From positions 1-32,370 of IMG/VR virus record IMGVR_UViG_3300008267_006518: DNA of 32,370 nucleotides, one strand, 5' to 3'. Under the pieces are notes generated by a model that was given only the letters and a program-made list of their open reading frames with translations, was not told the DNA's origin and made no database searches. Of the stretch, positions 6,047-19,927 are shown piece after piece (the stretch's first letter is position 1; each line of letters starts with the position of its first letter). Made by a program: the position numbers and the translations under genes. Origin of the DNA: a virus.

Positions 6047-6592
6047 TTAATTTGATAATGGCATTTTTATTGTTGGGTGATACTGATAATTTTCAAGTGT
6101 TATATCTTCTAAAGTATATTCTGATATATCATTAACTTTTCTGTCAGATAGTTTCAATCTTGGTAGATCATAAGGTTTCCTATCAATTTGTTCTTTAACA
6201 CCTTCTATCTGATTCAAATATATGTGACAATCACCTAAATTACATATAAGTTCATCAGGAACCATATCAACTTGTTTTGCAATCATCATTAGAAGTAAGG
6301 CGTATGATGAAATATTGAATGGTAACCCTAATGCGGTATCTACTGAACGTTGATTCCACATTAGAGAGATTGATCTGGTTGGAATTAAATCTAATGGATC
6401 TATATTTGGAGTTAAGTTCCTTCTTTTATATTCATCCATCCTTTCTTGAAGGGTTAACTCTCTTGTATAAACTTGAAATCCATAATGACAAGGTGGAAGA
6501 ACCATTTGGTCTAATTCACCTACATTCCAAGCTGAAACCATTAGTCGTCTTGAGTCTGGGTTTGTTTTAAGATCTACGCCACTGAGCTCCAT
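6047..6592 (-). CDS. thyA: Thymidylate synthase, C-terminal part of a broken gene
   Basis: 181 residues covering the second half of thymidylate synthase, which methylates dUMP to dTMP with methylene-tetrahydrofolate. NPDSRRLMVSAWNVGELDQM carries the two phosphate-binding arginines; VLPPCHYGFQVY has the catalytic Cys; LPFNISSYALLL and GDCHIYLNQ carry the substrate Asn and His. The frame begins at an ATG that lies out of frame inside the N-terminal half. Relative to intact enzymes about 20 residues between the QWR motif and the NPDSRR motif are missing, and the frame is shifted by one base at the same point. This looks like an internal deletion with frameshift, so activity is doubtful unless the halves reassemble. 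Confidence 0.85.
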   Translation of the reverse strand: MELSGVDLKTNPDSRRLMVSAWNVGELDQMVLPPCHYGFQVYTRELTLQERMDEYKRRNLTPNIDPLDLIPTRSISLMWNQRSVDTALGLPFNISSYALLLMMIAKQVDMVPDELICNLGDCHIYLNQIEGVKEQIDRKPYDLPRLKLSDRKVNDISEYTLEDITLENYQYHPTIKMPLSN

Positions 6593-7034
6593 AAATTGGG
6601 CCTAATTCACCCCATCTAAAAGCAAACATTTTATCTGTTTTGATTCGCTCAATAAACTCATCTTTAGAGTAAGGTTCAATAGTTGGAACACCTTTTGTAT
6701 CAATTGAATATGATTTCAAATATCTTACAATATCCTTATCACTAATTACTTTATGTAGATAATTTTTATAAGCATCACCATCCCAAATGTGACAATTATT
6801 ATCTACAAGGTATTTGATGTTGGTGTCACCTCTTAAAAACCACAAAAGTTCAGTTACCATTGTTTTAAATGCCATCTTCTTTGTTGTAAGAAGAGGGAAT
6901 CCTGTTTTCATTTTGTGACGAAGTTGTCTACCAAATACTGATATGGTTCCTCCGTTTCTATTTTCTTTTTTCTCGATACCAAAACGAAGGATGTCTTCCA
7001 AGAGTTCCAAATAATCTTCTTCAATTCTGTTCAT
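6567..7034 (-). CDS. thyA: Thymidylate synthase, N-terminal part of a broken gene
   Basis: 155 residues with the first half of thymidylate synthase: SVFGRQLRHKMKTGFPLLTT holds the phosphate-binding Arg and the folate-side loop, ELLWFLRGDTN holds the conserved Glu, HIWDGDA the Trp-Asp pair, and FRWGELGPIYGAQWR the segment before the active-site loop. It then stops (TAA) two codons after QWR, overlapping the C-terminal part by 26 bases in a different frame. All residues before the break match the family well, so the break looks recent. The start overlaps the stop of the upstream membrane-protein gene by 14 bases. Confidence 0.85.
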   Translation of the reverse strand: MNRIEEDYLELLEDILRFGIEKKENRNGGTISVFGRQLRHKMKTGFPLLTTKKMAFKTMVTELLWFLRGDTNIKYLVDNNCHIWDGDAYKNYLHKVISDKDIVRYLKSYSIDTKGVPTIEPYSKDEFIERIKTDKMFAFRWGELGPIYGAQWRRS

Positions 7035-9201: not shown

Positions 9202-9336
9202 ATGGTAACGAATATTCTCTCGGCAATTTTAAAATTTGGTCTTGTAAGTGTCGCCATTTTCTTTGGTTTGGGTATAGCCTTGTCAGCAATTCTAATCTAT
9301 CTAATTATAAAAGCAATATGGAAAAGTTTACCTTAA
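9202..9336 (+). CDS. Tiny membrane protein, 44 aa
   Basis: 44 residues, MVTNILSAILKFGLVSVAIF at the start, hydrophobic through to residue 39 with a short basic end (KAIWKSLP). One long or two short membrane spans. It is led by a good promoter and an A-rich leader and overlaps the next gene by 19 bases. Size, hydrophobicity and pairing resemble phage holin or superinfection-exclusion peptides, but no family is recognised. Confidence 0.55.
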   Translation: MVTNILSAILKFGLVSVAIFFGLGIALSAILIYLIIKAIWKSLP

Positions 9337-11425: not shown

Positions 11426-12487
11426 TTAATTGTTTGACTTGTTTATTTTAAAAGATTGATAGTTTTGACCATCGAATACATTAACAATATAAATACCTGA
11501 GGTAAGATCGTTTAACCAATTCTGATCGAAATACACGGATTTATTGGACGATACAATTTGTCCTGTTGTAGTAATAATGGTATATGTTTTCTCAACATTT
11601 GTTGTCTGAGTCATTTCATTAAATCCTGGAAAAATAGCTACTCCACCATCGTTTTTATTTGATGAACTAACGGCAACATCACAAGAGATTCCCCAACAGA
11701 ATGTCCAACCATTAATAATAACTCGAGAACGAACTGAATATAATTCACCAGGAATCAAAAGGTTTGCCGGTGTTGATCGAGATCCAATCGGAGGAAAATA
11801 TGTAAACATATTTGTAGGATTAGAAACTTGTGTGAATTCCATTTCATATTGTGTAGGATATAGGAAATCTAATACAAGTCCTGCGGGGATTGAATCATTT
11901 GGATTGATATTTGTTTTACCACAATAGAATGATCCGACACCATTTGGAGCCCTTACTCCACGAATTACAAGTGTATCAGAATTCAAAGAACATACACCAG
12001 GAATAGATGCTGTATACCATACAACCGATGTATCGAGTTGTGGTCCAGAGTAAACTGAATCACGAACTGAGATATAAGTTGGGAGGATTGTTCCATTGTT
12101 CCAAACATAGTTGTTATAACCACTTGTTGATCCGAGAATAACGGTATCAAACCTACAAACCCAAGGTCCTTTAACAACATTGATTGTTGGTTTTGATAAG
12201 ATGTTATAAGTTTGGGAAACTGTAACGGTAATTGTTCCACCATTACGACCTTGTCGTGTTCCAGTAACAGAACAAGTATATGTTCCACTTGTGTTGATCA
12301 CGATAGATTGGGTGATAGCTCCTGTATTCCACAAATAAGATTGGGGAACGAAACTGTTACCAGGAGAAGAAATAGAAATTGTTGTGTTTTCACAAACATT
12401 TGTCCGATTTGGGACGATCCTTACGCTGTTTTGAGCAAACAAAGTGAAAGGAATAAGAAGTGCAAGAAGTGTGATGAGTTTTTTCAT
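11426..12487 (-). CDS. Secreted Ig-like protein with type IX secretion (type A) sorting tail
   Basis: 353 residues. Signal peptide MKKLITLLALLIPFTLFAQ; then Ig-like segments with the motif SYLWNTGAITQSIVINTSG and NNYVWNNGTILPTYIS as in SprB-type repeats; then a C-terminal block of about 70 residues (KTYTIITTTGQIVSS, LTSGIYIVNVFDGQNYQSFK) that matches the T9SS type A sorting domain, including the G-x-Y-x-V-x-V strand and basic end. In Bacteroidota this tail directs proteins across the outer membrane through the type IX system. Encoded by a phage, it would use the host machine to reach the surface. A promoter with ideal spacing lies just upstream. Confidence 0.85.
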   Translation of the reverse strand: MKKLITLLALLIPFTLFAQNSVRIVPNRTNVCENTTISISSPGNSFVPQSYLWNTGAITQSIVINTSGTYTCSVTGTRQGRNGGTITVTVSQTYNILSKPTINVVKGPWVCRFDTVILGSTSGYNNYVWNNGTILPTYISVRDSVYSGPQLDTSVVWYTASIPGVCSLNSDTLVIRGVRAPNGVGSFYCGKTNINPNDSIPAGLVLDFLYPTQYEMEFTQVSNPTNMFTYFPPIGSRSTPANLLIPGELYSVRSRVIINGWTFCWGISCDVAVSSSNKNDGGVAIFPGFNEMTQTTNVEKTYTIITTTGQIVSSNKSVYFDQNWLNDLTSGIYIVNVFDGQNYQSFKINKSNN

Positions 12488-13571: not shown

Positions 13572-13588
13572 TTATTTGATTTTGTTTG

Positions 13589-13672
13589 TAGACAAGGGAG
13601 GACTCGAACCTCCACGATTATGTATCTCACAGGTTAAACCTGATTAGCGTCTGCCAATTCCGCCACTCATCT
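13589..13672 (-). tRNA. tRNA-Leu-like (class II), anticodon probably TAA
   Basis: 84 bases. Acceptor AGATGAG pairs with CTTGTCT (two G-T pairs), D-arm GCGGAATTGGCAGACGC is of leucine type, a short variable arm (GAT-loop-ATC) follows, and the T-arm GGAGG-TTCGAGT-CCTCC is perfect. No CCA is encoded. The anticodon region CAGGTTTAACCTG is self-complementary: one register gives loop TTTAACC with anticodon TAA (Leu, codon UUA), another gives GTTTAAC with TTA, which would read the UAA stop. Neither stem is fully paired, so the anticodon is uncertain and the RNA may be altered or degenerate. Confidence 0.7.
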
Positions 13673-17013: not shown

Positions 17014-17126
17014 TAGTCAGGACAGGATTCGAACCTGTAATTGTAGTAACGAACTGAGAACATCGCTTCCGGCTGCGAGTTACTACCCTTGTTCATTGGT
17101 GCGTCTACCAATTCCGCCACCTGACT
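17014..17126 (-). tRNA. tRNA-Leu-like RNA with oversized middle (113 bases)
   Basis: Acceptor AGTCAGG pairs perfectly with CCTGACT, the D-arm GCGGAATTGGTAGACGC is of leucine type, and the T-arm ACAGG-TTCGAAT-CCTGT is perfect. Between D- and T-arm there are about 61 bases where a class II tRNA has about 31. They include an 8-bp stem GTAGTAAC / GTTACTAC with an inner hairpin, and no normal anticodon arm can be placed with confidence. No CCA encoded. It may carry a short insertion or intron, or be a tRNA-derived RNA with another task. Confidence 0.6.
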
Positions 17127-17444: not shown

Positions 17445-17573
17445 TAGTCAAGACAGGAATCGAACCTGTACTGTCATAAAGGACATCAGCCTCGGGTTAC
17501 ATCACGCATAGTTATTTCTAACATCCCCGATACTATGCGACGGCTTTAGCGTCTTCCACTCCGCCACCTGACT
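17445..17573 (-). tRNA. tRNA-Leu-like RNA with oversized middle (129 bases)
   Basis: Acceptor AGTCAGG pairs with CTTGACT (one G-T), D-arm GCGGAGTGGAAGACGC is of leucine/serine type, T-arm ACAGG-TTCGATT-CCTGT is perfect. The middle is about 79 bases. It holds CGCATAGT / ACTATGCG (8 bp) and TCGGG / CCCGA in interleaved order, so a pseudoknot is possible, and an outer AGCC / GGCT. No anticodon arm can be assigned. The ends match the tRNA-like RNA at 17014-17126 almost exactly, so both descend from one tRNA. Confidence 0.6.
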
Positions 17574-18764: not shown

Positions 18765-18771
18765 AAAAAGT

Positions 18772-18811
18772 AAAAAAAAATAGGTTAAGATTTCGGGGAT
18801 CCTAACCTATT
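18772..18811 (-). terminator. Strong intrinsic terminator of the giant RNA
   Basis: On the minus strand AATAGGTTAGGAT pairs with ATCTTAACCTATT over 13 bp (one G-U), loop of 7, followed by a run of nine T. It defines the 3' end of the structured RNA near 18772. Confidence 0.9.
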
Positions 18812-19890
18812 TAAACCAAAGCTTCAGCACTTATCTTTGTGTTAAGAAGATCAATAAACTATTTCACAATCATAGTCTACAATTGGTAGTAATTTTACGA
18901 GAAGTTAGTATCGTGTTTTATGCTCGGACTTATACACGCTATCAACCATTAAAGAAGCAGGTCTATCGTAAACACTTATCCAAAGGGTGAACATCGTTAG
19001 AGTCTAATCCCCAGTGGGTTTAACCAAAGTTTGATTTTGTTTAATTTCTTTAAAAAACGATGAGATTACTCGTTTGGTTTGGAGACCTTTACATCGGATT
19101 ATTGTTTCCCGACTTATCCACAGAATTTTGTTCTGTATTCTCCAGTGTCGATGAGTTAGACCCATCACTCCTCAAGGTTTCATCTACTCTATCACTACTC
19201 CACTCTCTTCGAGGATGCCTCCCCAATTAGTCCTTGCGGGACTAGAGGTTTTTGGTGACAATATGATCAGACTTGGGATCTGAATCATCCTACCGACAGC
19301 CGGTAAGTAAGTGGACACCTTCCGATGAAACCTGCCGAACACTTTTCCTTAAGAACATTTAGTTTCTTTTAGATTGTGTCGTGGATTATCAAGGTAGTGG
19401 TTCGGCACCAGAGATATAAACTTTTGATCTATACCTATACTGAACTACCCTGTGAAACATCCCTGCTTCCTAACTTTTAGACAACTTCGAGATCCAACTC
19501 TTGGTAAAGTTTGATCAAGGAAAGTAACGGCACCACCCGTACACCTTCATACCTTTAGGTTTTAAGTCACCTATGATTATGGATACCGTAATGATATGGT
19601 TGGATAACCATACTTCTCACAAGAACCCTACGGGTTATTCTTATTGTCCTTCCGAACTCAACTGAACGACCCACATCGCTCAGTTACCTAACCATTTCTC
19701 CTACAGTGTCACCCTCGAATACTCAGGTTTGGTAATATCCCGCTTGCATACTCGAGCTCGGTTACCCAAGCCGCAGAGTCATTACACTTGTGACTCCACT
19801 TTATACCCCTTTCAGGGTTTATTTTAAAAGGACTATATGCCGCCCAAATACTATCTTTCAAAGAACGATGAGAAACGATTTTTCTCAAAC
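18772..19890 (-). ncRNA. Giant structured noncoding RNA, about 1.1 kb, GOLLD/ROOL-like
   Basis: No convincing gene exists in this stretch on either strand. A promoter (19897-19927) and a terminator (18772-18811) on the minus strand delimit one transcript of about 1.1 kb. Local stems are abundant: 19776-19796 (6 bp), 19660-19685 (6+3 bp), 19624-19636 (5 bp, triloop), 19595-19612 (7 bp, tetraloop), 19291-19305 (5 bp), 19263-19288 (9 bp with one bulge), 19228-19244 (6 bp plus outer 4), 19121-19135 (5 bp). GC content is clearly above the neighbouring gaps. Size, density of structure, phage setting and nearby tRNAs are those of GOLLD and ROOL RNAs, which are reported to assemble into RNA-only cages. 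Family assignment is not tested; it could be a new class. Confidence 0.85.
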
Positions 19891-19896
19891 AGAATT

Positions 19897-19927
19897 CAAA
19901 TATATAAATACTTTTTTGATTTGTCAA
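19897..19927 (-). promoter_or_regulatory. Promoter of the giant RNA
   Basis: Minus strand TTG (complement of 19925-19927, in TTGAC), 20-base spacer, TATATTTG (complement of 19897-19904). Transcription should start near 19890, where the structured region begins. Confidence 0.8.

Follow-up and report, generated by a model that had tools for sequence, protein, structure and literature searches.

The window analysed here, i.e. the whole 32,370-nt stretch of the IMG/VR record IMGVR_UViG_3300008267_006518, has genes for a transglycosylase, for a DNA methylase and for a protein bearing a T9SS-type secretion signal (CHU_C), together with a fragment of thymidylate synthase and further genes of phage type, a content which is consistent with a Bacteroidota phage. 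The thymidylate synthase gene (6567-7034, minus strand) matches its profile only from position 2 to position 100 (of 266) and looks truncated or interrupted. No conserved reading frame was found in positions 18772-19927: the only ORFs of at least 60 aa within this region are one 72-aa TTG ORF and one 68-aa plus-strand ORF, and the indels between relatives in a 20-sequence alignment do not fit a coding sequence. The GC content of the same region is 0.41, compared to 0.28-0.33 in its flanks. On the minus strand it begins with a promoter of the Bacteroidota type (19897-19927), in which a TTGACA-like element is combined with TATATTTG, corresponding to TAnnTTTG, and which can be read directly as TTG-N20-TATATTTG. 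This promoter is kept in three relatives (L004, L005 and L021), and most others have one of a similar kind. An intrinsic terminator (18770-18812, minus strand; stem 18812-18778 with 14 pairs, a 7-nt loop and a T run) closes a unit of about 1.12 kb, and the next gene has a promoter-like site of its own at 18763-18733. The first-pass annotation of this DNA had already described a stretch of raised GC content lacking a credible gene, with a minus-strand promoter and a terminator of a 13-bp stem plus nine T, and each of these points holds, the stem being counted here as 14 pairs.

The tRNA and tRNA-like genes which had likewise been placed downstream are found at 13.6, 14.2, 17.0 and 17.4 kb. At 13588-13672 (minus strand) a Leu-type tRNA is called with the anticodon TTA, which would read UAA, and an atypical anticodon stem; a 91% similar copy lies in L004 at 9233-9311. 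Two further elements on the minus strand (17014-17126 and 17445-17573, 113 and 129 nt) and one of 124 nt on the plus strand of another contig (L079:74) are tRNA-Leu-like, with intact acceptor, D and T arms, a structured insert of about 60 nt or longer replacing the anticodon and variable arms. ARAGORN, run on the window, does not call the two elements located there, and fragments of their arms recur in five other contigs (L012, L016, L020, L042 and L050).

A search with the Rfam covariance models identifies positions 19452-19057 of the minus strand as GOLLD (RF02032), the match extending over model positions 1-416 of 416 with 276.5 bits (gathering score 150) and an E value of 4.2e-78 in the window, or 8.8e-79 in a second search. 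The ROOL covariance model gives no match in the window, either at its gathering score or at E values up to 1. Of the giant RNA types proposed in the first-pass annotation, GOLLD is thus borne out by the end-to-end match. The setting is that of GOLLD as well, namely a phage record with tRNA genes 5 kb downstream, and in many relatives a tRNA adjoins the RNA. In the 833-nt GOLLD RNA env-38, residues 1-420 form the 5' domain and residues 421-833 the 3' domain (PMC12286853). Hence, RF02032 with its 416 positions describes the 3' domain only (here 19057-19452), and the approximately 400 nt upstream of the match (19453-19852, minus strand) correspond to the 5' domain, by analogy with env-38 the cap domain of a cage.

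A structured domain of about 400 nt, which in GOLLD is expected upstream and to be less conserved than the 3' domain, is indeed present. It folds far below its shuffled versions (z = -4.07) and has homologues across dozens of phage contigs. The consensus structure derived from the 20-sequence alignment (A1) comprises 194 predicted pairs, 134 of which show compensatory change, so that covariation is seen in both domains. For a separate count we used 96 pairs of the 5' domain and the two pairs of one long-range contact. Among these 98 pairs, 96.1% of the cells are paired, and changes on both sides occur in 70. None of 500 shuffles reaches any of five measures for this set, and sliding the partners by 1-3 columns lowers pairing to 38-44%. 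The control favours a structure which was drawn from the same alignment, although the 342 compensatory cells, compared to at most 50 after sliding, lie far beyond that bias. The local stems which had been recognised in the single sequence are therefore backed by covariation among homologues. Since RF02032 leaves the 5' domain uncovered, the alignment supplies a covariation-backed 5' domain for this group.

Within the 3' domain, two contacts deserve attention. A long-range loop pairing joins GG at 19348-19347 to CC at 19276-19275, the latter situated in a hairpin loop (columns 850-854); both pairs are formed with compensation in 20 of 20 sequences, as C-G or G-C (11/9) and as G-C or U-A (17/3), and for position 19276 (column 851) just one column of the entire alignment pairs with compensation in all 20, its neighbour likewise pairing in 20/20. 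This probably is the L20 contact, B7 in PMC12286853. The second is a hairpin of the L21a type (19230-19243, minus strand) with a self-complementary loop dinucleotide. In env-38, the half-shells join via self-pairing loops, among which L21a (bridge B8, a kissing loop) switches between GC and CG (PMC12286853). Assigned by model position (env-38 nucleotides 656-657 correspond to model positions of about 236-239), the loop reads CGCAA, i.e. GC, in 15 of the 20 sequences and UCGAA, i.e. CG, in the other five; it is always palindromic, and the window carries GC at 19237-19236. At the sequence level, a documented oligomer contact of GOLLD is thus retained here. A short variable linker, placed via the Rfam model at 19349-19376 (minus strand), corresponds to the mostly gapped columns 726-776 of A1, and the matching segment of env-38 is disordered and located in the cage interior (PMC12286853).

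Pattern scans of IMG/VR yielded about 50 contigs, and a BLAST comparison with the window, or an Rfam match, verified nearly all of them as GOLLD. BLAST also revealed relatives in the genomes of two phages, 635 and 642 kb long, and matches to the full GOLLD model were confirmed in both as well as in six further phage contigs. In every relative apart from L005, homology extends from near the 5' leader to about position 19052 of the window, whereas L005 matches the window through to 18700. L044 shows one more short AT-rich match, located in the promoter region of the next gene. A scan of bacterial genomes for the GOLLD motif gave one true match, in Mycobacterium (L057); a match in a Desulfobacteraceae MAG proved to be a false hit. 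Unannotated GOLLD sequences were found in the Acinetobacter phages YMC13/03/R2096, Herod and vB_AciJM_313 and in the mycobacteriophages Bongo and Rey, the calls in these five phages being based on BLAST similarity to GOLLD queries rather than on a covariance-model search. The GOLLD-like sequences of these phages (L083, L084, L085, L086 and L087) lie within tRNA arrays, and in the Acinetobacter phages the 5' domain is also visible by eye upstream.

The length of the unit, which exceeds that of env-38, had led the first-pass annotation to propose one giant RNA of 1.1 kb, longer than typical members and therefore possibly divergent or of a new class. Such a class, merely GOLLD-like and with a longer architecture, could be argued from the promoter-to-terminator unit of about 1.12 kb and from a tail without relatives. 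The stretch is, however, made up of two parts: the GOLLD RNA occupies about 19890-19051, and a tail with little structure follows it (19050-18778). The GOLLD core measures 836 nt (about 840 nt), and complete relatives span 813-934 nt from a boxA-like element to the 3' end, hence the GOLLD part is not oversized. Together with a match of 276.5 bits over the full model length and a 5' domain homologous to the GOLLD 5' domains of dozens of contigs, this makes a new class very improbable indeed. The locus is a GOLLD of ordinary size and kind, and its apparent excess length is a lineage-specific 3' tail of about 240 nt (18813-19050, minus strand) plus the terminator. This tail begins where homology to all other GOLLDs stops. 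It is common only to L005, a near-identical contig (100% over 287 nt), and is absent from L004, whose GOLLD is 89% identical, and from all other relatives. When the tail was compared by BLAST with the window and every fetched locus, and when an exact 18-mer from it was searched in IMG/VR, L005 was the sole match, and Rfam at lax thresholds gave chance hits but no family match over the tail. The fold of the last approximately 290 nt (19050-18778) is no better than that of shuffled sequences (z = -1.16). In the relatives, the slot just 3' of the conserved hairpin holds a terminator in some cases (e.g. L004, L009, L011, L021 and L044), and in others a tRNA or tRNA-like element lies within about 20 nt of the hairpin (e.g. 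L010, L017, L045, L046, L003 and L030). Glu-like tRNAs directly follow the GOLLD 3' end in L002, L003, L015 and L030, some of them called with a two-base anticodon or with enlarged D arms. A second T run at the end of the tail, TTTTTTTTGTGC, looks like what follows the terminators in several relatives, which suggests that the tail was inserted ahead of an older, ancestral terminator. This resemblance, the poor fold, the lack of a family match and the tRNA or terminator found at the same place in relatives would also suit a tail that is a small RNA in its own right, or what is left of a decayed former tRNA slot, with only the terminator retained. Against this speaks that there is no strong promoter-like site between GOLLD and the tail, which is thus probably co-transcribed; the identity with L005 would add to this, but L005 is too close to show constraint. 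We regard the matter as evenly balanced.

In the leader, 30 nt after the promoter, lies the boxA-like element GTTCTTTGAA (19857-19866, minus strand). BoxA (in E. coli TGCTCTTTAACA) binds NusB-S10 and guards untranslated rRNA against premature termination. The heptamer TTCTTTG is present in a leader setting in 33 of the 38 GOLLD contigs whose upstream part is long enough, and other leader forms are GTTCTTTAA in one further contig and GTTCTTAAAA in three near-identical contigs; the exact leader motif is missing from L003, L019, L027, L033 and L042. A1 does not provide an independent count of the motif, because its rows began at the motif where present. An RNAalifold pairing of the block with columns 1041-1045 was set aside as an isolated long-range artefact. 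The exact GTTCTTTGAA occurs twice in the window (0.23 expected); the second copy, at 11982-11991 on the minus strand, lies within a long ORF and is probably due to chance. Of 10 Bacteroidota 16S leaders, 7 also contain TTCTTTG, and GTTCTTTGAA itself precedes the 16S rRNA by 120-220 nt in operons of Segatella, Prevotella, Persicobacter and Aureibacter, in some of which a promoter of the type seen here lies upstream of it. Across six related contigs (1.16 Mb, both strands) the motif occurs 15 times, compared to once for the reversed pattern, its sites including positions before or inside tRNA arrays. Judged by position and resemblance, GTTCTTTGAA may thus be a Bacteroidota boxA. Alternatively, it could be a chance or ancestral leader sequence without any role in antitermination, given that the relatives share ancestry, so that the counts are not independent, and that no boxA was found near GOLLD in the fetched loci of Acinetobacter and mycobacterial phages, in which tRNA arrays surround GOLLD. 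The latter observation shows that a boxA leader is no general feature of GOLLD. Such a reading fits poorly, however, with a 10-mer that is the sole block kept in leaders which are otherwise largely unalignable, with its presence ahead of tRNA arrays in the same phages and with its similar position in Bacteroidota rRNA leaders, and we consider it rather unlikely, albeit a serious alternative. In the open-access literature we found no earlier report of a boxA with GOLLD, the matches of the search being unrelated, and no paper combining GOLLD, Bacteroid* and phage.

In conclusion, the region is very probably transcribed as one noncoding unit, from which a Bacteroidota phage makes GOLLD. Transcription would start at the promoter and, after a leader of about 30 nt, the boxA-like element would recruit the host NusB-S10 machinery as on rRNA; such antitermination could allow the long untranslated GOLLD to be made full-length and in quantity, a testable idea for how this RNA is produced. 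By homology with env-38, the RNA would fold as two domains, and about 14 copies would join by kissing loops and A-minor contacts into an RNA-only cage, most likely serving to enclose or sequester a macromolecule late in infection. The 3' tail, which occupies the tRNA or terminator slot of the relatives, might either be cut off in processing or be kept as an appendage, if it has a role at all. A bolder and doubtful reading is that GOLLD of Bacteroidota phages forms a cassette, consisting of an rRNA-style boxA leader and a slot after the conserved 3' hairpin for exchangeable appendages (a tRNA, tRNA-like elements or, here, the 240-nt tail) that would be carried on or delivered with the cage subunits. 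The slot shared with tRNAs at least suggests which molecules might be linked to the cage.

Compared to the leader of Bacteroidota rRNA operons, the order of elements is alike, with a TAnnTTTG promoter followed some 35-50 nt on by GTTCTTTGAA, whereas 16S rRNA lies downstream there and GOLLD here, where antitermination is a candidate role. ROOL, too, is a giant phage RNA near tRNAs and forms an RNA-only cage, an 8-mer (PMC12286853); the ROOL model matches nothing in the window at the thresholds given above, and the sequence and structure of ROOL are different. The closest counterpart is GOLLD itself (RF02032; env-38), about 14 copies of which form a hollow RNA-only cage according to cryo-EM (PMC12286853). 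The RNA described here shares with it the full 3' domain match, the 5' domain, the core size, the self-complementary L21a loop and the phage setting near tRNAs; it differs in its short linker without an inserted tRNA, in the extra 3' tail of about 240 nt and in the boxA-like leader. Beyond the latter and the swappable 3' slot, which represent two modest new leads, the locus is one more GOLLD.
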